A stretch of DNA of 38,443 bases, taken from positions 1 through 38,443 of the forward strand of contig JAMCPS010000172.1 in the NCBI GenBank assembly GCA_023379705.1, given 5' to 3'. This DNA comes from Campylobacterota bacterium (GTDB lineage Bacteria > Campylobacterota > Campylobacteria > Campylobacterales > Sulfurimonadaceae). The notes under the pieces are model-generated. The model was not told the DNA's origin. It was given only the letters and a program-made list of their open reading frames with translations, and did not search any database. Made by a program: the position numbers and the translations under genes. Shown here in pieces: positions 1 through 31,320 of the stretch (position 1 is the first letter of the stretch; each line of letters opens with the position of its first letter).

Positions 1-423
1 ATTATATTTGACACACCGCCAGGTTTTAGCCCAATGGCTGATTTAGCCATGCAGCTTTCCGACACTATCATTGCTGTACTAGAAGCAGATGCTACCTCAT
101 ATGCCACTTTAGACCTTATGCAAAAAGCACTTTCAACAATAAAAAAACACCATGAAAACAAAAGAATCTATTTTGTAACCAATAAAGTATTTACTGATGA
201 GATCAGTGTCAATTTCGAAACTATTTACCGATATCTCTTTGATACGATGTACCTTTTTGCATTGCCATTTGATTCTAATGTAAAGCATGCTGCTGCTCAA
301 ATGCAAACTTTAGAGGACTATAACCATCTTTCTCCACTGTACCAAAGTCTCTTACAGATGCTTGAAAAATTGCTTCCTGATTTTAATGCAGATACTTTAC
401 GCTATAAAAGTAAAACGCCATAA
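1..423 (+). CDS. bcsQ: BcsQ/YhjQ-like ParA/MinD-family ATPase, C-terminal part (5' truncated by window edge)
   Basis: Frame 1 is open from base 1: IIFDTPPGFSPMADLAMQLSDTIIAVLEADATSYATLDLMQKAL. The DTPPG switch II and the 'EADAxSYATL' stretch resemble BcsQ. The Walker A lies outside the window. Confidence 0.65.
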   Translation: MIFDTPPGFSPMADLAMQLSDTIIAVLEADATSYATLDLMQKALSTIKKHHENKRIYFVTNKVFTDEISVNFETIYRYLFDTMYLFALPFDSNVKHAAAQMQTLEDYNHLSPLYQSLLQMLEKLLPDFNADTLRYKSKTP

Positions 424-1021: not shown

Positions 1022-2005
1022 TTATTGTATCTTTTTTTGTAGCCTTATCTGCTTAAAATAAGGACTTGAAGGCTTAGCAGAAAAATTGGACCGATAAATT
1101 CCAAAATATTTTTCTCCTTCATTGAAATATCCCTCATGACTAGGTACATCAACTAAATGAAAAATATTTATACCAAAAATCCCATTCTTTTGCAGTATAT
1201 CCTGTCGCTGGGAGATACGATTTAATACCTCTCCTTGAAGCTTCTCACCATCTTCTCCCTGCGTTGAAATTGCGAGATAAGCCAACATAACAGGCTTATT
1301 ATAGGTTGAATTAAGATAGGAAGCAAATGATTCAATCCGTTCTGGTACTTTTTCTATCTGTTGTTTAGTATTTTTAGTCAATGCACGCATCTCTTGAAAG
1401 GCAATAAAATCAAATGCATATATCGATGTTCTAAGAGATGCATCAAATTTTTTCCAATTTGAAGAGTCGAAACTTTTGTCATAATTTCCAAAATCACCCA
1501 CACATGGACCAATAAGAATATCACCGTGATCAAGAATTCTTTTACTTTCCAAAAGCAATTCATTAAATCCACTCCATTCTTCTACGCCATGTTCATTATA
1601 TTCTGGATTAAGAACAATAACTTTTTTCCCGTCAATTTGATCTAAATAATCTCTAAAACGTTTTAAATACGCAAAATATTCCGCTTTATGTTCTTGTATA
1701 TAAGCTACCGAAATATCATCGGCGAACCAATAGAGAATAAATATAGGACTAAATCCTTCTTGTACAATACTTTGATTAATTTCTTTGGCAGGATACCACT
1801 CTTTTACCCAGTCTTTTGTAATCCAAAGTGAAATAGCATTTACTTGTGTTAAATTCGTATCTTTCAAAATTTTAGCAATAGGAACATAATTAGAAGTTGG
1901 TGACGGCTTGTATTCATAACCGCCAACACCAATTAAATCGAATGCAAATATCGAGCTGTTCAATAGAAGGATAAAGAAACTTCCACACAGCCATTGTATC
2001 CTCAT
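1022..2005 (-). CDS. Secreted glycoside hydrolase-like TIM-barrel protein (DUF4434-like)
   Basis: 327 aa with N-terminal signal peptide (MRIQWLCGSFFILLLNSSIFAF). Alternating hydrophobic strands such as FSPIFILYWF, KKVIVLNPEYNEHG, FDFIAFQEM, KPVMLAYLAIS and GIFGINIFHLVD are typical of GH-type barrels. Overlaps the upstream gene by 4 bp (ATGA). Confidence 0.5.
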   Translation of the reverse strand: MRIQWLCGSFFILLLNSSIFAFDLIGVGGYEYKPSPTSNYVPIAKILKDTNLTQVNAISLWITKDWVKEWYPAKEINQSIVQEGFSPIFILYWFADDISVAYIQEHKAEYFAYLKRFRDYLDQIDGKKVIVLNPEYNEHGVEEWSGFNELLLESKRILDHGDILIGPCVGDFGNYDKSFDSSNWKKFDASLRTSIYAFDFIAFQEMRALTKNTKQQIEKVPERIESFASYLNSTYNKPVMLAYLAISTQGEDGEKLQGEVLNRISQRQDILQKNGIFGINIFHLVDVPSHEGYFNEGEKYFGIYRSNFSAKPSSPYFKQIRLQKKIQ

Positions 2006-3840
2006 CGGTATGCGGCAAGAAGAGAAAATTGTTTTCTAGGTGCCAAATCAGTGAAGGTAATATCAGTATATCGTTCATTGCTATTATGTAGATAAGTAAA
2101 ACTGACCCCTGTAGTATCTGCTTTGATAGACTTTACATTCCCAAAACGAGGCCAATAAAGACGTATAATAACTTCAGGAACGGTGATTTTATTATTATTA
2201 ATCAAAGAAACAATATAGTTCTCATGACTTATCGAAACAGAGGTGTCAATTAAACTGACCATTTTAATACGTTTAGCAATATCACGACCTTGTCGAAAGG
2301 TAGTTGTGTCTTTTTCTTTTAACTGTCTTAAAATAGATCTTACGATCGAAATATTATGAGGATCGCTGAAAAGGTGCGTATGAATACTTAATGTATAAAT
2401 TCCATCAAGAGCATCGATAAAAGATGCTTCATTTAACATAGTTTTTACCAGTGCCTCTTCATCTAAAGTATGATTCGCAATAAAAGAAAAATCATCCGTA
2501 CCAACCCTGGAAATAACAACCAAATCTTTTCGTATGATAGTAGGATAAAGATGGTTTTTATTTTTTTCCATCGTATATTCATATCCACTTTCAAGTAATT
2601 TTTGCGCTATTCTATCGTTAATCTCTTCACGAGGAGGGCGAAAACCTGTCACTTTGCTTTGACTTAGTGTTTCAAGAATCTGTTTGGAGCCCAATAATTC
2701 TCGAGTCAGCCCATCCTCATTCTCCGCTAATAAGTCACCGTGGGTATGACTATGCGATCCTACTTCTAAAAATGAATTTTCACCAAGCTCACGGGTTACC
2801 TCAGGAAAGCGTTCAGCTAACATACTAACACAAAATGCCGTACTTGGGACTTGTAATTCTTTGATTACCTCAGAAAAATAGCGAGAGTTTTCATAACGAA
2901 ACTCAGTATCTTCAGAAATAAAAACAGGATTTTTACCACTTAAATAAGGATGGATACGTACTGCAACTCCATCAATAGCGAAACGCACAATTCCCTTCCA
3001 GAGAGCACTGTACTTTTCATTATCCGCTCCTGAAGAGAAAAAAACATATGATGGAAAATTAAAATAGACCCAACTACCCTTACCTTTTGATCCATGCCAC
3101 AATGCTCCGCTAAATTCAGATGGCAAATGAACATCATCAATCTTCGGAGAGTTGTACTGTGTCCAATCCGTATACATCATATCGGGCTTCATTGTTTTTG
3201 GAGTGCGAAATAATGGAATATCCTCATAATAGACAAATGAAAGCAATGGACCACTCTTAAGCTGTGTCGTAAGTGGAGAAAAGACCTTTGGGCTACAAAA
3301 AATACCTGTCTGCTTTTTTAAGGTATTAATATAAGGGTCAACTTCTAATCCAGTTATTTCACGTACAAATGCATCACCGCGCCATCCTCCATCCGGCCCG
3401 CTAAATCCACTGTATTGGTTAAAAATCAGAGATCCTCCCTCTTCAACAAATCTGACGATACTGGCTGTTTCCTCACTTGTCATAGCAATGGCATCTAATA
3501 CGAATAAGGTATCTGAAGTTTTAAGTGTTTTTAGCATCTCTAAATCTATCATCTGCACATCATATCCTTGTTTAGATAACAATGTTTTCATCTCATCCAG
3601 TTGTTTTTCATAGCCTGAACCATTATTTCCAAAACTTTTTAAACGATTAATAGTTGTTTCAGAACGTAAAAGATAAATGTTATTGGTAGTGCCACCTGAA
3701 AGAGCAAAATTTGCTGGTGAATAATTGTTAAATAAAAAATAAAATACTGGTGACATCAAGATCGCAATAAGAATAGTAATCAGTAAAGCCCGATTTTGAT
3801 ATGAAAAAGAAATCCGATTAGCTAGAAAAAGGGCCGTCAT
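2002..3840 (-). CDS. Membrane-anchored polysaccharide deacetylase (CE4/NodB-like) with N-terminal glutamine-amidotransferase-like domain
   Basis: 612 aa; N-terminal TM anchor; GATase1-like 'FVLDAIAMTSEETASIVRFVEEGGSLIF'; NodB-like motifs 'FISEDTEF' (motif 1), 'GSHSHTHGDL' (HxxxH), 'FRPPREE' (motif 3) and 'SIHTHLF' (C-terminal His motif). Confidence 0.75.
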   Translation of the reverse strand: MTALFLANRISFSYQNRALLITILIAILMSPVFYFLFNNYSPANFALSGGTTNNIYLLRSETTINRLKSFGNNGSGYEKQLDEMKTLLSKQGYDVQMIDLEMLKTLKTSDTLFVLDAIAMTSEETASIVRFVEEGGSLIFNQYSGFSGPDGGWRGDAFVREITGLEVDPYINTLKKQTGIFCSPKVFSPLTTQLKSGPLLSFVYYEDIPLFRTPKTMKPDMMYTDWTQYNSPKIDDVHLPSEFSGALWHGSKGKGSWVYFNFPSYVFFSSGADNEKYSALWKGIVRFAIDGVAVRIHPYLSGKNPVFISEDTEFRYENSRYFSEVIKELQVPSTAFCVSMLAERFPEVTRELGENSFLEVGSHSHTHGDLLAENEDGLTRELLGSKQILETLSQSKVTGFRPPREEINDRIAQKLLESGYEYTMEKNKNHLYPTIIRKDLVVISRVGTDDFSFIANHTLDEEALVKTMLNEASFIDALDGIYTLSIHTHLFSDPHNISIVRSILRQLKEKDTTTFRQGRDIAKRIKMVSLIDTSVSISHENYIVSLINNNKITVPEVIIRLYWPRFGNVKSIKADTTGVSFTYLHNSNERYTDITFTDLAPRKQFSLLAAYR

Positions 3841-4033: not shown

Positions 4034-5329
4034 CTACAATCTTCCTTTTCTGTCAAGTTTTCCCCATGTCATTCCGATTCCAAGCCACTCTTCAATTGTT
4101 GCAAATATTTTGGCTATATTGATAATACCTATAAAATAAAGACGATATAGTATAGCGTAAAAAACCAAAGAGAGTTTCTCTTTGGTAACTAAAATACAGT
4201 AGAGTGCCCCTGCCAAATCAAGCACAGTAAAAAGTGACCACCATAAAAAGAGTAAAGAGTTTACCCCAGTAATCAAGGTAATATAAAGTAAAAATAGCGT
4301 TGCCCACACGTCCATAAATGGCCAAAAAATAGATTCAAATAGCATATACCAAAGGACTACCGTCATTGAAGGGCGTCCATGAGTACGAAACAAATAATGC
4401 TTGTGCTTACGGATAGCTTGTAAAATTCCCCGCGTCCAGCGATAGCGCTGCTTGATTAAATCAAGTAGATGTTCAGGGGCTTCAGTATAAGCTACCGCAT
4501 CTGACTCAAAATCAATTGCATACCCCTCAGCTAAAAGTTTCAATGTCACGTCACAATCTTCTGCAAATGTATCGTGAGCATAAAGCCCGACTTTTTTTAA
4601 CGCTTCTAACCTAAACATACCAATGGGCCCTGGGATAATATTAACCAACTTTAAAAAAGCTTGGCCATTACGAACCATATTTAACCCTTCAATGTATTCC
4701 AGTGCTTGCAGTCTTGTAATACTATTGATTTGATTCACCACATAAACTGATCCTGCAACCGCAGCAATCTTTGGATCATCGAAATATTGTACCATCAATG
4801 ATACCGCATCATCATTCAATCTTGAATCAGCATCAACAACCATGATTAAATCACCTGTTGCATGTTCAATTCCCGTATTAATAGCTCTGGATTTTCCACC
4901 ATTTTGTTTTGTAATCACCTTTACTTTTGGTCCTTGGTACCTTTTTGCAAAAGGATATGTATGGTCTTTCGAACCATCATCTACTACAATGACTTCCATA
5001 TTAGGATACGTTTGTTGCAACAATGATATAATTGATCGGCTTATTACTACCTCTTCATTGTATGCCGGAACAATAATTGATACGCGAAGATGAGTATGAA
5101 TATTTCTCTCTCTTGTCTCTTTTTCTGTTTTCAAGCCCACTTTGAAAATTGAAAAAAACATCAAAGCCAAATAGCGCAGAATTACTATTCCAGTAAAAAC
5201 AACAATCATAATCACTGCAATCATTATAAATGTATTATCAATTATTAGATAAAAAGAATACAGTTCTACAAGATTGATAAACGCAAGATAAGTTAGTGAA
5301 AGGAGTAAGGCGATGATAAAGAAAGGCAT
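4034..5329 (-). CDS. Family 2 processive glycosyltransferase (PgaC/HasA-like), no PilZ domain
   Basis: 431 aa; DDGS, 'VVDADSRL', 'EDCDVTLKL' and Q-x-x-R-W ('QRYRWTRG'); two N-terminal and several C-terminal TM helices; ends 'LDRKGRL' with no room for a PilZ domain. Confidence 0.85.
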   Translation of the reverse strand: MPFFIIALLLSLTYLAFINLVELYSFYLIIDNTFIMIAVIMIVVFTGIVILRYLALMFFSIFKVGLKTEKETRERNIHTHLRVSIIVPAYNEEVVISRSIISLLQQTYPNMEVIVVDDGSKDHTYPFAKRYQGPKVKVITKQNGGKSRAINTGIEHATGDLIMVVDADSRLNDDAVSLMVQYFDDPKIAAVAGSVYVVNQINSITRLQALEYIEGLNMVRNGQAFLKLVNIIPGPIGMFRLEALKKVGLYAHDTFAEDCDVTLKLLAEGYAIDFESDAVAYTEAPEHLLDLIKQRYRWTRGILQAIRKHKHYLFRTHGRPSMTVVLWYMLFESIFWPFMDVWATLFLLYITLITGVNSLLFLWWSLFTVLDLAGALYCILVTKEKLSLVFYAILYRLYFIGIINIAKIFATIEEWLGIGMTWGKLDRKGRL

Positions 5330-5339
5330 TCTAGACTAA

Positions 5340-8009
5340 TTACCAGTTAAGTAAAAGTTTAGCATCACAAGTATCATACGAATATGGGACAATTTTACCT
5401 GCAGCTCCAATAGATTTATTATTGAAACATCCTAAACGAAAAGTTATACCTTTTGAAAATGGCTTCTCAATCCAACCGCCAAATTTATACAAGTAAACAT
5501 TACTCTCATACGAATATCCAAATCCACCCATAAACTTCAACATTGTATTCTCATACATCGGCATGTCTAAATAATTGGTAATAAAAGTTCCATCGGCAAA
5601 TTTTGGTGAATAGTAGTCAACAGTTGGTTTAGAATTAAAAATATACCAACCATCTACCGCAACAGACCACAACCCAGAAAAAATAGGCGTTTGATAAAAT
5701 CGATATTGAAACTGGGGAGTAAAAATGACATTCCCCTCTTCATCCCAGGCAACTTCGGCAGCACCCCAAAATTCATCATTATCCGAGAATAATGCATAAT
5801 CACTCAGTTGTAATGAACTAAGTGTATTATGTTTCTTTAAAGGGGCAATTGCATTTTTAACCAATCCGACATTTCTACGATAACCCGTAAGAGTAAGTGT
5901 ATGAGATTCCATCGGATAAGAAAATCGAAGATAGGGATTAAAGTCAGCTTTTTCATCAATACCATCTACATACACTCCGGCTTCTAGACTATCATTTCCT
6001 ACCGAAAAAAATCCACTTTTACCTTGCATGTATTCTGTATTCTTGCTAAGCTTATACCCCCCTGCAGTTCCCTGCAATGAAACTCCATTTGATGTTGTTA
6101 ATTTTCCTACAACTTTTGCTGAAGTGACTTGCAAACCATCAGAATCAGTCAATTGCTCACCCTCTAGCCCAATATTTAAAGAGATTTTATTTTCATGAAA
6201 CAAAGGCTCTTCTATCGCAGTAGCAGTAGTATTATTTACTTCATCGTTTTTTGATACCGACTCTATCATTAACACAGCTGCAATAGCTTCAGCCTCTTCG
6301 TGATTGCTTGATTCTTTAAGGGTTTGAACATACAACTGTCCATACATAGGAATAGAGGTTTTCAAATAAAGCGATCTGTATATCCTTGCCGCCTCATCAA
6401 ATTTTCCTTTCTTACGCAAAAAAACAGCATAATCTGATTCTTCTTTATAAGCAGTATCACTCGATACAGGAAAAGACTCAGGTGAAGGCGCTGATGTTAA
6501 TGAATTCACATTTACAGAGGATGCAGGCTTAATCTCTTCTATCAATGTTTTGACTTCTAATGATACATCTGAGTCATTTTTAATTTTTTTCAGTATGACT
6601 AATGCTTCATTGGGATGATCGGTCCACATAAGATTTTTAGCGTATTCAAGCCAAGCATAGGCTGTATCGACCTTTATCGCATAAGCTTTCCAATAATTAA
6701 GCCCAATAGCTGATTCTTTCGAACGTAATGCAATATTGCCCATCTCTTTTAATAGATTAGGGTCTTGAGTGATTGCATACTGTTTCTCAAAATAATACAG
6801 TGCTTTTTGTTCTTGGCCATCTTGGATCAGTAAAGATGATAATCGTTGTATTATCTTAATATCCTGAGGAGATTTTTTTTGAAGTGCTTCATATTTATTA
6901 ATTAGAGGAGCAAAGTGTTTTTTATCATATAAGACTTCTTCCCGTACTTCTTCATCTCCTGGTCTTTCGTGATTCAACACAATAAATAGTTCTTTTGCTG
7001 TTGAATGATCACCCTTCCATCGTGCAATATAAGCAAGACTTTTTTTCGCATCATAACGCTGAATATCATTTCCAAAACGTATTACTTCATCTAATAAAGG
7101 CATAGCGCCAGAATAGTCACCTTTCCATGATAAAATTTGACCACTCGCTAATTTAGCATCATATTTATGATTACCTTCAACCATATGTAAATAATCGAGC
7201 GCCTCATCATATCGTTTCTGCCATCCCAAGTTTTTTCCCAGCAATAGGCGAACTTCATAATCAAATGGATAATTTTCAACATGATGCTTTAAAAATGACA
7301 TCTGCTCTTCTGGTTTATCCATTTGCGTATAAAGATAGGATATAACTTCAATATTTTTCATCGAACTGTCTTTACGATATTCATCTAAAGCATCACTAAG
7401 CTTCTCATTAAGAGATTTAGTTTTGGCCTTTATGGGTTGCTGAGTAGTCACTTCAAAAACTCTTTGAGCTTTTTTATCTGATATGTCAGCAGTTTTTACT
7501 ATATTCTGAGACTTAATAGTCAACTCCTCAGGTAAAAGTTCTTTGGAAATCTGAGTAAGAATAGATCCTGCCAATATTTTATTAGGCCCTTCACCAATTT
7601 TATTTCCTAAAATTCGTTGCGCAGGTACATCTATTGGAATATGAAAACGATTAAGGGCGCCATATAGCTTTTCTGCATCTTGAGAAGATAAGCCCGATGC
7701 AACTGAGCCTACATTACTTCCTGCAGAATCAATATTTAATTCCTTTAAATACGCTTTATCTCTTTTCCAATATTGAATATCCTTCATCAGATTAACAACG
7801 GACTCATTTTTAGAAACATCAACTCCTTTTAAGACATCTAATGCTTCTTCAGCATTATCATGTTCCAGCAAAGAACGCGCATAGATTACTTTGCTTTGAA
7901 CGTTAGAGCTGGATTGGATAGATTCTTTCAATGTAGCTTCATCTACCCATATTGTTGCGTGCAAGCTACCTATCAATACAACAAACAATAAACAAATACT
8001 ACGCTTCAT
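5340..8009 (-). CDS. TPR-rich outer-membrane beta-barrel exopolysaccharide export protein (PgaA/BcsC-like)
   Basis: 889 aa; signal peptide MKRSICLLFVVLIGSLHA; TPR-like repeats (PFDYEVRLLLGKNLGWQKRYDEALDYL etc.); C-terminal beta-strand-rich region ending in an aromatic residue (KLLLNW). Confidence 0.8.
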   Translation of the reverse strand: MKRSICLLFVVLIGSLHATIWVDEATLKESIQSSSNVQSKVIYARSLLEHDNAEEALDVLKGVDVSKNESVVNLMKDIQYWKRDKAYLKELNIDSAGSNVGSVASGLSSQDAEKLYGALNRFHIPIDVPAQRILGNKIGEGPNKILAGSILTQISKELLPEELTIKSQNIVKTADISDKKAQRVFEVTTQQPIKAKTKSLNEKLSDALDEYRKDSSMKNIEVISYLYTQMDKPEEQMSFLKHHVENYPFDYEVRLLLGKNLGWQKRYDEALDYLHMVEGNHKYDAKLASGQILSWKGDYSGAMPLLDEVIRFGNDIQRYDAKKSLAYIARWKGDHSTAKELFIVLNHERPGDEEVREEVLYDKKHFAPLINKYEALQKKSPQDIKIIQRLSSLLIQDGQEQKALYYFEKQYAITQDPNLLKEMGNIALRSKESAIGLNYWKAYAIKVDTAYAWLEYAKNLMWTDHPNEALVILKKIKNDSDVSLEVKTLIEEIKPASSVNVNSLTSAPSPESFPVSSDTAYKEESDYAVFLRKKGKFDEAARIYRSLYLKTSIPMYGQLYVQTLKESSNHEEAEAIAAVLMIESVSKNDEVNNTTATAIEEPLFHENKISLNIGLEGEQLTDSDGLQVTSAKVVGKLTTSNGVSLQGTAGGYKLSKNTEYMQGKSGFFSVGNDSLEAGVYVDGIDEKADFNPYLRFSYPMESHTLTLTGYRRNVGLVKNAIAPLKKHNTLSSLQLSDYALFSDNDEFWGAAEVAWDEEGNVIFTPQFQYRFYQTPIFSGLWSVAVDGWYIFNSKPTVDYYSPKFADGTFITNYLDMPMYENTMLKFMGGFGYSYESNVYLYKFGGWIEKPFSKGITFRLGCFNNKSIGAAGKIVPYSYDTCDAKLLLNW

Positions 8010-8011
8010 TG

Positions 8012-9463
8012 TTACTTATCCATCCCAAAAGTACGTTCAAATAAAAGTTCTTTCCCGCTGAACAGTTCAGGAGCTTCAAATGCATTTTCATAGATCATGT
8101 CTTCTTTTATCATCAAAAGCTTTTTCCATAAAATTTGATGATCTTCTTTTTGTGCATTTATTAAAAGCAAATACAACTTATGGTTATCTTCATCCAAATA
8201 GGCCAGATCTTCTTCACGAAATACTGTATTCAGCAACTCATTTTGAAACGCTGCAGTATAGTTAAATACAAATACCGTAAATATTCGTCTTAATTTCAAC
8301 TCCGCTTCAATAAAATCAGCAAAATTCATTGATGAATCAACCATAGTAGCGTGAATACTTTTATGTATGTTATTAGAGTAAAATGAGTTATCTAAAGTTT
8401 TTTCAATCCCCAACACATAATCAAGTACACGAATATTCTTAGCAAAGATTTCAGATCCACCCAATTGATGAACATCAACTTTATCTTCAGCCCTCACAAA
8501 CCCTCGGGTTAATATTCCAATCGTTTTGGCTATAGGATTATGAAACTTTGCCTCCGTATAAAAATTAAGAATTGATTCCATTTTATCATTGCTATAGATA
8601 ATCAAGTCACTTTGCGTCCAAATTTCATCAGGCATCTCCAATAACTCTCTAAAGCGGCGTAACGATACTCTAGCTAAGTTTCCAAAAAGATACTCGTTCC
8701 ATTGTGCAAGTGGGTCATTCTGACTAACAATAAGAATATCGATTGTTTCTTTTTTATTTGGCTTAACATCCGGCGTAATGATGGCAGGCCTAATGTCATG
8801 TAATGCTGGAGGAAAAGTGTCTGCAAGAGGTTCATTGTATTTTTCATTTAATTCAAATCTATTATCACGATAAACAAAACTGTAAACTGCATGCTCAAGA
8901 GGATAAAAGGATGCAACAACATTTACCAAACGCCCCTTTTGCTGATTATCATTAGAAATAGAGAGTGTAAGATCAGCATAATTGAGCAAAGCATCATGAA
9001 TAGAAAGATAATTATCGCTTGGCTTCAGGAGTGAAACGATTGTCTTTACTTTACGACTTAAAACCAGACGTGCTATATCAGAAATTATTTCAAAACTGTC
9101 CAACTGATCCATCATATCGAATAATAAATCAATTCGCTGAATATATAATATTTTTGCGCCTGTCGTATCTAAAAGCTTTTCTATGTCATTAATGATAAAT
9201 TTCAGTCCTAACTGACGCTTGGTTTGTTTCCAATCCTCAGATAATAACAGAATATGAGCAAACTCAAAGCTATCTTCATTCATCATGCTTTTGGTAATTT
9301 CTTGCTTTTTGTAATAAGTTTCTTCAGGTATTGTAACAATAATTGTCGCTTGATCAAGATGTGATGAAGTAGTAAAAAAAATTGAAAGCATATTTTTACC
9401 GGTTCCTCTATCTCCTTCAATCAAGATAAATTCGGCGTTCGAAGCAACTTGTTCTAATGTCAT
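8012..9463 (-). CDS. BcsE-like protein: degenerate RecA-like NTPase + REC-like + degenerate GGDEF-like domain (candidate c-di-GMP receptor)
   Basis: 483 aa; Walker A-like GDRGTGKN (9392-9415); 'KETIDILIVSQND...' REC-like; C-terminal 'LKLRRIFTVFVFNY...FREEDLAYLDEDNHKLYLLLI' resembles a GGDEF fold with RxxD (REED, 8207-8218) at the I-site position. Confidence 0.6.
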   Translation of the reverse strand: MTLEQVASNAEFILIEGDRGTGKNMLSIFFTTSSHLDQATIIVTIPEETYYKKQEITKSMMNEDSFEFAHILLLSEDWKQTKRQLGLKFIINDIEKLLDTTGAKILYIQRIDLLFDMMDQLDSFEIISDIARLVLSRKVKTIVSLLKPSDNYLSIHDALLNYADLTLSISNDNQQKGRLVNVVASFYPLEHAVYSFVYRDNRFELNEKYNEPLADTFPPALHDIRPAIITPDVKPNKKETIDILIVSQNDPLAQWNEYLFGNLARVSLRRFRELLEMPDEIWTQSDLIIYSNDKMESILNFYTEAKFHNPIAKTIGILTRGFVRAEDKVDVHQLGGSEIFAKNIRVLDYVLGIEKTLDNSFYSNNIHKSIHATMVDSSMNFADFIEAELKLRRIFTVFVFNYTAAFQNELLNTVFREEDLAYLDEDNHKLYLLLINAQKEDHQILWKKLLMIKEDMIYENAFEAPELFSGKELLFERTFGMDK

Positions 9464-26812: not shown

Positions 26813-29011
26813 GTGCATAAAATACGAATAAGAGCGACACTGTTTGCGATGGGAATTGTCCTCTTACTCGTAGGCTACTTTGTTTACTCTATTTTACAAG
26901 ACAAAAAACGGGTACTGGATGAGAAAACCCAGTCTCACCGTGAACTTTTACGAAATGCTTATGAACTTTCTGTTCTAGATACCGAAAAAGGGCTCAATCA
27001 TTTTGCGTGTAAAATGATGGCTGATCATCGTATCGTGGATGCTTTTGAAGCACATGATCGCGATGCTCTCTATGCCCTTGCTATGCCGTATTTTAACGAT
27101 GCCCATGTTCGCGGCGATGTTGATTTGACCGGCTTTATTCACAAAGACGGTTTTCATTTTCTCCGTCTAACTGATCCAAAAAAATTCGGCGACAATATTA
27201 CCAAACAACGACCCATGCTCGCAAAAGCTATACGTACACGTGAACCTCTAACCTCTTTGGATGTCACCAAATACAATCTCTCTCTTGTCAGTATTATTCC
27301 TGTGTTTAAAGAAGAGGAATTTATAGGTATCATCCAAGTATCTGCAAAAATTCAACGAATACAAGATCGTCTAAATGCCCATTCAGCCATCAGAAGCGCT
27401 CTTGCTTTTGACACCAAAGCTCTCCATCAAATGTTACCGAATCATCAATCAAAAACGTATGGTTCTTATTCCCTTATTTCTTCCAATGATTCATTGTTTG
27501 AGCAATTACCTGCTGATTATTCGTTTATTGATTCTCTGAGTTACAAAATAGGAAATAAAACCTATATCATTGCCTCTCGAGAATTAATGACTTATGCTCA
27601 CAAACCTTTAGCCAAAATGATCTATGCACTGGACATCACCGATGATGAGCTGGCTTATGAAAAAGAAATTAGAAACGTCTTGCTCATCAGCTTGCTATTA
27701 CTTTCGTTGTTATGGATTATATTGCATATTGGTTTTAAGGCCCTTATCAATCGAATACGTACCCTTTCCTCTCAGATTACACAACAATTAGATGATCAGC
27801 TCCATATGGACAGCCTTACAGCCCTTCCAAACCGAAAAGCGCTTCTTGAAAACATCCAACAAAAAAAGCACATTGCCGTCTTACTCCTGAATATTAACAA
27901 TTTCAAAGAGATCAATGATTTATATGGCCATGAAATTGGCGATAAGATACTCAAAGAAATGGCAAACTCTATTCAAGTGATTATCGAAGAATATTCTCTT
28001 AAATTGTATAAAATGCATTCGGATGAATATGCACTGGCTCTTAGTGAGTACATCAATGTTGAACAATTTGACACGATGTGCCAAACGATTTTAACTCGTC
28101 TTCATGCCATAAATTGTGAAGTTGACTCTATTACCATTTTTATCACTTTTAGTATGGGAGCGGATATCTGTTTTGATAAAGGGTGTAATCTGGTCGGACG
28201 TGCGGACATGGCACTTAAAACAGCAAAAAAGAAAAACTTAACCTTTGTTAAATACCACGACTCTCTGCATATCAAAGAAGAGTATCAGAATAATATTTTG
28301 TGGAGCAAAAAGCTTAAAGATGCTATTAACCACAACCGATTTGCTCTCTATTTTCAAGGAATTCATGAGGCTTCCACCCAGCGTATCTTTGAATATGAAG
28401 CCCTCATACGGATCATGGACGAAGATGGCACAGTGATCACTCCTGCCTCATTTTTAGATATTGCTAAAAAATCACGTCTTTACTCTCATATCACTGAGTT
28501 TGTGATTCGCCAAATCTTTAAACAGCTCATTGCAACACCACACCGCTATTCGATCAATCTTTCCATAGATGATATACTTGATCCTAAAATTCAAACTTTA
28601 CTTTATGAACTTCTTGCCGAGAATTCTGTTGGTGATCGACTTATTTTCGAACTTCTTGAAGGAGAAGGGATTGAAAACTATCAAGAAGTTTTAGCATTTA
28701 TTTTGCGTGTAAAAGAGTATGGATGTTCAATAGCCATTGATGATTTTGGAACAGGTTATTCCAATTTTGCCCATATTATGAAGCTAAATGTAGATTTCAT
28801 CAAAATTGACGGCTCTCTTATCAAACGCCTTGACCTCGATCTTAGCGCACAAGATATTGTTCGCACGATCGTTGAGTTTGCTCACCGTTTAAATATTAAA
28901 ACCGTTGCCGAGTTCGTTTCTACTCAAGACATCTATGACGAGTGTATTGAGCTTGGAATCGACTATATACAGGGATATTACCTAAGCAAACCAAAACCGA
29001 TGCCGCTATAG
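26813..29011 (+). CDS. Cache-like sensor - GGDEF (degenerate) - EAL protein
   Basis: 732 aa; N-terminal TM, periplasmic domain 'DVDLTGFIHKDGFHFLRLTDPKKFGDN', second TM, GGDEF site degenerated to 'HSDEY', EAL motifs 'YEALIR', 'IAIDDFGTGYSNF', 'KIDGSLIK', 'TVAEF'. GTG start. Confidence 0.9.
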   Translation: MHKIRIRATLFAMGIVLLLVGYFVYSILQDKKRVLDEKTQSHRELLRNAYELSVLDTEKGLNHFACKMMADHRIVDAFEAHDRDALYALAMPYFNDAHVRGDVDLTGFIHKDGFHFLRLTDPKKFGDNITKQRPMLAKAIRTREPLTSLDVTKYNLSLVSIIPVFKEEEFIGIIQVSAKIQRIQDRLNAHSAIRSALAFDTKALHQMLPNHQSKTYGSYSLISSNDSLFEQLPADYSFIDSLSYKIGNKTYIIASRELMTYAHKPLAKMIYALDITDDELAYEKEIRNVLLISLLLLSLLWIILHIGFKALINRIRTLSSQITQQLDDQLHMDSLTALPNRKALLENIQQKKHIAVLLLNINNFKEINDLYGHEIGDKILKEMANSIQVIIEEYSLKLYKMHSDEYALALSEYINVEQFDTMCQTILTRLHAINCEVDSITIFITFSMGADICFDKGCNLVGRADMALKTAKKKNLTFVKYHDSLHIKEEYQNNILWSKKLKDAINHNRFALYFQGIHEASTQRIFEYEALIRIMDEDGTVITPASFLDIAKKSRLYSHITEFVIRQIFKQLIATPHRYSINLSIDDILDPKIQTLLYELLAENSVGDRLIFELLEGEGIENYQEVLAFILRVKEYGCSIAIDDFGTGYSNFAHIMKLNVDFIKIDGSLIKRLDLDLSAQDIVRTIVEFAHRLNIKTVAEFVSTQDIYDECIELGIDYIQGYYLSKPKPMPL

Positions 29012-29044
29012 TTTATTTACACCGCTTTTTATCGTATTTTAGGT

Positions 29045-29050
29045 TATAAT
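29045..29050 (+). promoter_or_regulatory. Candidate -10 element upstream of second GGDEF-EAL gene
   Basis: TATAAT 29 bp before the ATG at 29080. Confidence 0.4.
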
Positions 29051-29079
29051 ATTTTTTGATCCTGAAATAGGCATGAAAA

Positions 29080-31320
29080 ATGGAACAAATACGTACGAAA
29101 GCGTTACTGCTCACCATAACGCTGCTCACCTTTTTGATTGCATTTTTCTTTAGCGTCATTGTGCAAGACAAGCAGGATGTATTAGACCAAAAAATCACTT
29201 CCCACCACCAACTAATCGACAATTCCTATGAACTAGCAGTTGCAGATACCGAAAAAAAACTGACTCAATTTGCCTTTAATCTGATGTCCGATAGCGCGAT
29301 ACTGGATGCATTTTCTGCACGTGATCGCAATAAACTCTTAATCCTTGCAGCCCCCTATTTTAATAAAGCCAACGCTCACGGTGATGTTGATCTCGCCGGC
29401 TTTATCCAAAATGACGGTCATCATTTTTTACGCCTTACGGATCCAAATAAATTTGGGGATAACATAGCTAAAAAACGTCCAATGATTGCACTTGCCCTTA
29501 AAGAACGAAAACCAATTACCTCCATGGATGTTACGCTTTATAATATTTCTATCGTAAACATTGTGCCGATTTTTAATAAAGGGAAATTTTTGGGAATATT
29601 ACAGACTTCCTCTAAAATTGAACGATTGCAAAATCGTCTGAACCTTCGTTCGGGCATTAAGAGTGCTCTTGCTTTTGATTCTAAAAAGATTGCTGCTTTG
29701 TTACCAGAAAAAAAATTTCAAACCTATGATGCCTTTGCTATCATCTCCTCCAATGACACTCTCTTTGACTATTTACCCTATACGTATGCCTTTCCAAAAT
29801 CACTTACACATACCATCGAAGATAAAACATTTGTATTTGTAGCCAAAGATATAAAAACCTATACCAATAAGCCATTAGCAAAAATCATCTGTTCTATTGA
29901 CATCACTAAAGATGAAGAAGACTACAAAAAACAAATTTTTCAACTAAGCACCATTACCCTGATACTCACACTCGTTTCATTTTTTATTCTTAATATTGGG
30001 TTCACTGTACTCATTCGACGAATTAATGAAGACATAAAAATCAAAGAGGATTTAAACGAAAGATTGTCCCATCAACTTTATGTCGATCACTTAACAGGCT
30101 ATCTCAATCGTCATGCGATTCTCAGAGACTTACAACAAGAATCATTTTATGCAATAATCTTGCTGAATATTAACAATTTCAAAGAGATCAATGACTTTTA
30201 TGGCCATGAAATAGGGGATAAAGTGATCCTATCTATTGGCAATACCATCCAACAAGAAATCAAGAAATACCCAATGCGTTTATACAAAATGCCCTCAGAT
30301 GAATATGCAATTGCCCTTCTCAGCCCTATATCAGGTCATGAATGCGAAGGGATTAGTCAGTCAATTTTGAGCAATATTCAAACAATGCACTATGATTTCT
30401 CAGGTATTCATATTCATATTACCCTTACCATGGGAATTAATATGTTTATTCATACTTCAGGTGCCAATGATTTTTCTACTCCGCTGATTAATGCCGATAT
30501 GGCACTCAAAGAGGCCAAAAAACGTCATAAGAGCTACCTTGTCTACAGTGAAGATATGCATATAAAACAAGAGTATCAACAAAATATCTTGTGGAGTAAA
30601 AAGGTCAACGATGCAATTAATGAAGACCGTTTGGCTCTGTATTATCAACCTATACATGAGGTGGGAGGCAACATCGTTGAATATGAGGCCCTTATTCGCA
30701 TTATTGAACCCGATAATACCGTTATTACTCCCTATTATTTCCTTGAAGCTGCTAAACGTTCAAATCTTTACCATCACATTACTAAATTTGTCATCAGCAC
30801 TGCATTTTCCTTTGTTGAATCAACCCAAAAAAGCATCTCTATAAATTTTTCCGTAGATGACATCCTAGATACCGCTACCGTAGAATTCTTCCTCTATAAA
30901 CTTACCCAATGCGCTCATTCAAATCAAATTATTATCGAGCTGTTAGAAACAGATGGCATTGATAATTATTCTGAAGTTTCTTCCTTTATTAAAAAAGTAA
31001 AAGAATACGGTGTCCGCATTGCGATAGATGATTTTGGAACAGGATATTCCAATTTTGCCCATATCTTGCGTCTCAATGTGGATCTACTCAAAATTGACGG
31101 CTCACTTATCAAACACATTGACACCGATACGAATGCACAAACCGTAGTTCGAGCCATTGTCCACTTTTCCAAACAGCTTGGTCTTAAAACGGTTGCTGAA
31201 TTCGTCCACACACAATCGGTGTATCAAAAGTGTATTGAGCTTAATGTGGATTATTTCCAAGGTTACCATCTCAGCGAACCGAAGCCCATGGGGTTTCTAA
31301 CATCTATACCTCAGGATTAA
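29080..31320 (+). CDS. Cache-like sensor - GGDEF (degenerate) - EAL protein, tandem paralog
   Basis: 746 aa; co-linear with the preceding protein; 'DVDLAGFIQNDGHHFLRLTDPNKFGDN'; GGDEF site 'PSDEY'; intact EAL motifs 'YEALIR', 'IAIDDFGTGYSNF', 'KIDGSLIK', 'TVAEF'. Confidence 0.9.
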   Translation: MEQIRTKALLLTITLLTFLIAFFFSVIVQDKQDVLDQKITSHHQLIDNSYELAVADTEKKLTQFAFNLMSDSAILDAFSARDRNKLLILAAPYFNKANAHGDVDLAGFIQNDGHHFLRLTDPNKFGDNIAKKRPMIALALKERKPITSMDVTLYNISIVNIVPIFNKGKFLGILQTSSKIERLQNRLNLRSGIKSALAFDSKKIAALLPEKKFQTYDAFAIISSNDTLFDYLPYTYAFPKSLTHTIEDKTFVFVAKDIKTYTNKPLAKIICSIDITKDEEDYKKQIFQLSTITLILTLVSFFILNIGFTVLIRRINEDIKIKEDLNERLSHQLYVDHLTGYLNRHAILRDLQQESFYAIILLNINNFKEINDFYGHEIGDKVILSIGNTIQQEIKKYPMRLYKMPSDEYAIALLSPISGHECEGISQSILSNIQTMHYDFSGIHIHITLTMGINMFIHTSGANDFSTPLINADMALKEAKKRHKSYLVYSEDMHIKQEYQQNILWSKKVNDAINEDRLALYYQPIHEVGGNIVEYEALIRIIEPDNTVITPYYFLEAAKRSNLYHHITKFVISTAFSFVESTQKSISINFSVDDILDTATVEFFLYKLTQCAHSNQIIIELLETDGIDNYSEVSSFIKKVKEYGVRIAIDDFGTGYSNFAHILRLNVDLLKIDGSLIKHIDTDTNAQTVVRAIVHFSKQLGLKTVAEFVHTQSVYQKCIELNVDYFQGYHLSEPKPMGFLTSIPQD

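Follow-up and report, generated by a model that had tools for sequence, protein, structure and literature searches.

Here, we report that the BcsE-like protein encoded on the minus strand of the window (the whole stretch of 38,443 nucleotides that was analyzed) is probably a c-di-GMP receptor of the BcsE type, and that it would exclusively serve a synthase-dependent, non-cellulosic exopolysaccharide system of Campylobacterota by switching on the GT2 synthase of that system; this reading draws on sequence comparison and structural modeling. We infer the following course. Two c-di-GMP molecules, probably as an intercalated dimer, would be held between two motifs, R324xxD327 in the receiver-like (REC) domain and R416xxD419 in the degenerate GGDEF domain, and the two domains would close on each other, with the dead NTPase domain serving dimerization and docking. 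The closed receptor would then dock at the membrane on the GT2 and a small single-transmembrane (single-TM) partner and activate the synthase. The polymer, probably a PNAG-like N-acetylhexosamine, would be deacetylated and trimmed in the periplasm and exit via the TPR outer-membrane protein. The coordinates of the gene, its domains and its operon are collected in Table 1.

Table 1. Features of the BcsE-like gene and its operon in the window
Feature	Position	Strand	Basis
BcsE-like protein, 483 aa, degenerate NTPase-REC-GGDEF	8012–9463	minus	ORF, ATG start; alignment, profiles, AlphaFold model, Foldseek
Degenerate RecA/KaiC-like NTPase domain, residues 1–207	8843–9463	minus	Pfam PF06745 below cut-off; model and Foldseek; catalytic positions lost
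Relict P-loop GDRGTGKN, residues 17–24	9392–9415	minus	Sequence and alignment column counts
Receiver-like (REC) domain, residues 240–357, phospho-acceptor Asp replaced	8393–8746	minus	PDB-sequence profile search and model
First RxxD (R324AED327), counterpart of R306ATD in E. coli BcsE	8483–8494	minus	Invariant 21/21; hhalign register
Degenerate GGDEF domain, residues 378–463	8075–8332	minus	Model secondary structure and Foldseek
Second RxxD (R416EED419), I-site counterpart of R415TGD in E. coli BcsE	8207–8218	minus	Invariant 21/21; hhalign register
TPR-rich outer-membrane export protein, 889 aa, barrel-like C-terminal region	5340–8009	minus	Pfam TPR; synteny; barrel inferred
GT2 processive synthase, 431 aa, without PilZ	4034–5329	minus	Pfam; NCBIfam PgaC/IcaA below cut-off; catalytic motifs
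Small single-TM protein, 71 aa, directly after GT2 stop codon	3818–4033	minus	15/15 gaps; codon-position-3 bias
Polysaccharide deacetylase, 612 aa, N-terminal beta-galactosidase-trimerisation-like domain	2002–3840	minus	PF01522, E 3.8e-15
Glycoside hydrolase, 327 aa, with a clan GH-A-like (beta/alpha)8 fold and an N-terminus resembling a signal peptide	1022–2005	minus	AlphaFold, Foldseek, invariant E135/E205
Co-directional 205-aa protein without family match	397–1014	minus	Beside the operon only here and in nearest relative (L008)

Family libraries do not name this protein. Pfam PF10995 (CBP_BcsE) gave no match to it at E ≤ 1 and found nothing in this genome and 20 relatives, with the E. coli control matched; Pfam GGDEF did not match, Pfam KaiC (PF06745) stayed below its cut-off (E = 2.2e-4), NCBIfam did not identify it, and a single-sequence PDB search returned a chance match only. 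Profiles and structure were used because these searches failed, and we keep "BcsE-like" as the safe name because the protein lies outside PF10995. A profile search against PDB sequences recovered the REC-like middle segment that an earlier note on this DNA had read from the letters (PhoP receiver, E = 5e-6, profile positions 224–328). The AlphaFold2 model, built on a 16-sequence alignment (pLDDT 79, pTM 0.50, linker 210–237 disordered), ends in a strand (395–401), a helix (408–413), a hairpin (420–424/429–435) and a second helix (439–450), i.e., a GGDEF-like core with the RxxD just ahead of the hairpin. The same note had placed an RxxD just before a lost GGDEF motif, and its REED is found exactly there, at residues 416–419, with the active-site position reading DEDNHK in place of GG[DE]EF. 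The comparison of predicted structures that it had proposed also came out as it expected: besides this core around REED, the five best Foldseek matches in the PDB are full-length E. coli BcsE chains (9fo7, 9fnn twice, 9fp0 and 9fp2; E 5.5e-15 to 6.4e-13, ~520 alignment columns, 10–11% identity), and KaiC ranks after them. The degenerate NTPase-REC-GGDEF order of BcsE is thus present by AlphaFold, Foldseek and profile–profile comparison. Please note that whole-chain TM-scores to BcsE are only ~0.26, owing to the uncertain relative placement of the domains in the model; we count them, together with the unmatched PF10995, against our reading.

Homologues were collected from 151 genomes of the window's family, seven of which carry the protein. 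At class level, 398 genomes were searched with a profile; 11 strong full-length matches (two already known) were obtained, plus weaker matches to two shorter proteins, in G156 and G385. The other weak matches were almost all ordinary receiver domains and were left out of the counts. The first alignment held 16 full-length proteins with 18–53% identity to the window protein, the later one 19 full-length homologues (median pairwise identity 24%) and two short forms, 21 altogether. Eleven positions are invariant in the 19 full-length proteins (K82, D164, F196, F260, R324, D327, E354, F361, Y362, R416 and D419), and R324, D327, R416 and D419 are invariant in 21/21, the short forms included; the two RxxD motifs therefore supply 4 of the 11. 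If 11 invariant positions were scattered at random among 483, these four would all be included with a probability of 1.5e-7, and the conservation of R416/D419 in the alignment exceeds chance. The first motif, equally invariant, had been overlooked in the earlier note.

Aligned by hhalign, the profiles of the BcsE-like family and of BcsE score 45.4 (E = 8.8e-5, 325 columns), as compared with at most 17.4 for 60 column-shuffled BcsE profiles and 15.2 for the reversed profile, and the register puts R324AED327 on R306ATD and R416EED419 on R415TGD of E. coli BcsE. When the four RxxD columns were masked, the same 325-column path was returned with a score of 26.3. The spacing between the motifs is 88–96 residues in the BcsE-like family versus 109 in E. 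coli BcsE, which holds an intercalated c-di-GMP dimer via R306ATD of its REC domain and R415TGD of its GGDEF domain (PMC11470070); R415 and D418 were ligand residues in an earlier crystal as well (PMC7439463). The relation is supported through hhalign but not through PF10995, and "divergent BcsE", as the protein had been called, agrees with the architecture, the fold match and both RxxD motifs but not with formal family membership. Identity to E. coli BcsE is ~10%, and of a BcsQ-binding tail little or nothing is left. The protein here keeps a recognizable GxxxxGK P-loop, which is lacking in the enterobacterial BcsE sequences of the alignment.

Because the catalytic residues of NTPase, receiver and GGDEF are lost, the pair of RxxD motifs appears to be the conserved business of the protein. 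A loss of enzymatic residues in all three domains would also suit a protein of BcsE-like ancestry that has lost c-di-GMP sensing and serves the synthase as a structural scaffold or in its assembly, and E. coli BcsE is able to bind BcsRQ independently of c-di-GMP too (PMC7439463). We consider a mere scaffold unlikely, however, since the only functional motifs that the family has conserved are the two c-di-GMP RxxD pairs, without exception in 21 sequences.

The BcsE-like gene, like bcsE of E. coli, stands first in its operon, which is conserved in Campylobacterota at every locus with enough sequence, the order being BcsE-like protein, TPR outer-membrane protein, GT2, single-TM protein, deacetylase and GH-A hydrolase on the minus strand, nearly without gaps. 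Other carriers keep this order on all contigs of sufficient length, with the hydrolase gene absent at a few loci; the TPR protein is syntenic in all sufficiently long loci and is split into two ORFs in some relatives. In the GT2, the catalytic motifs D117D118, D166xD168, E257D258 and Q294xxRW are invariant, the nearest NCBIfam model, TIGR03937 (PgaC/IcaA), is matched at 192 bits versus a cut-off of 422.3, and no PilZ was found by Pfam. PgaC-PgaD is the c-di-GMP sensor in E. coli; PgaD (PF13994) is absent from the operon locus in all 18 genomes searched, and a PgaD gene lies elsewhere in the genome in three carriers (G082, G180 and G392). We count a GT2 without PilZ and a locus without PgaD in favor of a dedicated BcsE-type receptor, and likewise the presence in the window of a c-di-GMP turnover protein with dCache-GGDEF-EAL domains by Pfam (26813–29011, plus strand) and of its paralogue by similarity (29080–31320, plus strand). 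These two lie adjacent (26813–31320) and are 732 and 746 aa long. Neither a c-di-GMP riboswitch nor any other Rfam RNA was found in the window. The BcsE-like operon has no bcsR, bcsQ or bcsF, the only trace being the end of a BcsQ-like gene where the window begins, and this we count against our reading.

Among known systems, PgaABCD (PNAG) is similar in having a PgaC/IcaA-type GT2, a TPR outer-membrane protein, a polysaccharide deacetylase and a hydrolase, but deacetylase and hydrolase are separate proteins here. The hydrolase was modeled with a pLDDT of 89.5 as a barrel of the clan GH-A type, with Foldseek matches to GH5/GH10/GH39-PslG (E about 1e-9). A PelA-like reading of deacetylase plus hydrolase found no support, as neither matched PelA. 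The polymer is probably an amino-sugar polymer of the PNAG type, as suggested by the deacetylase and the PgaC-like GT2. The operon differs from that of E. coli BcsE, which has BcsA/B/Z/G where PgaC-like GT2, deacetylase and GH-A hydrolase are found here. PelD, from the Pel system, sits in the membrane and contains a GAF domain. It is likewise a receptor of a synthase-dependent polysaccharide system with a degenerate GGDEF domain and an I-site (PMC7439463), features that are predicted from sequence in our case, but the BcsE-like protein additionally has the NTPase and REC domains and a second RxxD.

Directly upstream of the BcsE-like gene, two relatives have a gene for a ~600-aa histidine-kinase-like ATPase with TPR, plus FecR in one (L045, 10716–12611; L046, 7015–8886), and ORFs of similar size occupy this position in several other loci. 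In one genome, an Alginate_lyase2-family gene is located there (L052, 10560–11291).

The earlier note had described the cluster as not a classical cellulose operon. This holds in that the GT2/TPR/deacetylase/hydrolase operon comes without bcs genes in most carriers, but a cellulose cluster may adjoin it. The window begins with the C-terminal 140 aa of a BcsQ/ParA-like protein (1–423, plus strand), truncated where the contig ends. Its homologue in the nearest relative, G082 (L008, 11884–12630), is the BcsQ of a BcsQ-C-Z-B-A cluster that is complete and runs convergently to the BcsE-like operon; going by this homologue, a cellulose cluster may therefore lie beside the operon in this genus. Contig C99, which has a BcsQ-family match, was rejected as the continuation of the window edge, as its ParA-like gene sits beside obgE and housekeeping genes and there is no overlap. 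In a rival reading, the BcsE-like protein is the BcsE of such a neighboring cellulose operon, acts together with BcsQ and BcsA-PilZ like its E. coli counterpart, and precedes the GT2 operon by chance. At all loci, however, its gene accompanies the GT2 operon and not the bcs genes, and it is not encoded with cellulose synthase (bcsA/bcsB). Among 16 genomes with the full-length protein, five have BcsB (G082, G144, G105, G005 and G002), and it was not found in the other 11, this genome included. BcsA was not found in this genome either (the operon GT2 is not BcsA), nor was BcsC, in a search without a positive control. Since, in addition, the BcsQ-binding tail of the E. coli protein is here reduced or gone, a role in neighboring cellulose secretion seems decidedly improbable to us, and a receptor of the GT2 system is preferred.

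The N-terminal domain shares its fold and a GxxxxGK relict with KaiC/ArlH-type RecA-like ATPases, but differs from them in its lost catalytic residues and in the C-terminal REC-GGDEF part. The P-loop-like GDRGTGKN, with N in place of the final S/T, and the Walker B-like strand without acids (ILYIQRID, residues 105–112), both pointed out in the earlier note, prove to be family traits: the GK is kept in 17 of the 19 full-length homologues and is followed by N, M, F, L or, once, T (canonical S/T absent in 18/19), and the strand ends in Q/H where the acid is expected in all 19. Neither Walker A (GxxxxGK[ST]) nor the Walker B acid of KaiC/RecA ATPases is thus present in the protein. The phospho-acceptor column of REC has an Asp in one of 21 homologues. 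By these residues, the NTPase domain is dead and the REC domain phosphorylation-incompetent. It is for this reason that we give very little credit to a two-component-type regulator of the operon in which a KaiC/RecA-like ATPase would work with a phosphorylated receiver, to which the weak Pfam KaiC match, the rank of KaiC next after BcsE in Foldseek and the kinase-like gene upstream in the two relatives examined would point. RxxD is a short motif, and K82, D164 and E354 are invariant as well, which would suit Arg/Asp pairs kept for folding and not for ligand binding. This is scarcely credible, however, since each pair falls on a ligand-contacting pair of BcsE, on an alignment path independent of them.

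The operon also encodes a hidden membrane protein. The gap between GT2 and deacetylase genes, 70–195 bases in all 15 loci examined, has in 15/15 an ORF of 57–72 aa that begins at, near or overlapping the GT2 stop codon. It is shorter than the usual ORF length cut-offs. The product has one transmembrane helix and the motif FG(V/I/L)(I/L)(A/T)YFLYKxRE; basic residues follow the helix, and the tail ends close to YIFFE. It matches no Pfam family above cut-off. Changes concentrate in third codon positions (e.g., 2, 0 and 14 at positions 1, 2 and 3 over 36 codons), and the ORF is therefore very probably translated and under purifying selection. The positive charges would place the tail in the cytosol.

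A collection of 85,462 genomes was scanned with this small protein, a query that biases the survey toward loci with the operon. Nineteen loci were found, 17 of them with the GT2-small protein-deacetylase core. By name, these 17 are mostly Campylobacterota (Sulfuricurvum, Nautiliaceae, Nitratifractor and Helicobacteraceae), the exceptions being one 2-kb contig labeled Thermaceae and one labeled only "bacterium". A BcsE-like gene is present in 11/11 scan loci that reach far enough upstream, one of them as a fragment cut by the contig end. On a Rhodothermales contig (L071, 8171–13204), a GT2 is accompanied by a large deacetylase-type protein and by a 226-aa protein that resembles the small protein in its N-terminus and TM segment, and no BcsE-like gene was found there. 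This suggests that the GT2-plus-small-protein module is wider than Campylobacterota, and we count it against our reading of the receptor. BcsF, which anchors BcsE in E. coli, likewise has a single TM segment and a basic tail, and its gene shares the operon of bcsE. Homology of the small protein to BcsF was rejected, as only the topology is common. With its occurrence in Rhodothermales in the absence of a BcsE-like gene, the small protein is most simply a synthase partner, and it may be a subunit of the synthase rather than an anchor of the receptor.

The interpretation of the protein as a divergent BcsE in a non-classical-cellulose cluster is largely correct, and the case is strengthened by the conserved operon, the small membrane protein and the RxxD in REC. 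In the papers cited here, BcsE is an accessory of type II cellulose systems that aids a synthase already sensing c-di-GMP through PilZ, and its "activation by proxy" has been compared with systems that sense through separate subunits (PMC11470070). The operon reported here would be a case in which a BcsE-type protein alone does such separate-subunit sensing. If it is the sole receptor of a different synthase, then activation by proxy becomes a general principle, testable in a simpler complex of receptor, GT2 and one small membrane protein, and Campylobacterota of vents and sulphidic habitats would gain a defined c-di-GMP output in matrix production. Bundalovic-Torma et al. noted pga-type operons without pgaD, with BcsE outside their analysis (PMC7112194). 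Nothing relevant on BcsE homologues outside cellulose systems, or on BcsE with Campylobacterota, was found in the open-access literature, which is weak evidence of novelty because subscription literature was mostly uncovered.

We would go further only tentatively, and hesitate to claim an even chance for it: these loci may form a distinct Campylobacterota class of synthase-dependent polysaccharide secretion, with all c-di-GMP control exerted via a BcsE-type dual-I-site receptor and a 57–72-aa single-TM synthase partner, without PilZ, PgaD, BcsQ or BcsR, and BcsE itself may be the cellulose branch of a wider receptor family, with its origin in the fusion of a KaiC-like ATPase to REC and GGDEF. 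The NTPase domain found here would represent an intermediate, still P-loop-bearing stage of that of BcsE. Two proteins of 266–269 aa consist of the REC-GGDEF half alone with both RxxD present (L054, 9602–10402; L055, 5726–6535), and it is possible from their sequences that they are free-standing c-di-GMP receptors; the L054 gene adjoins glyS and metabolic genes, outside any polysaccharide operon.
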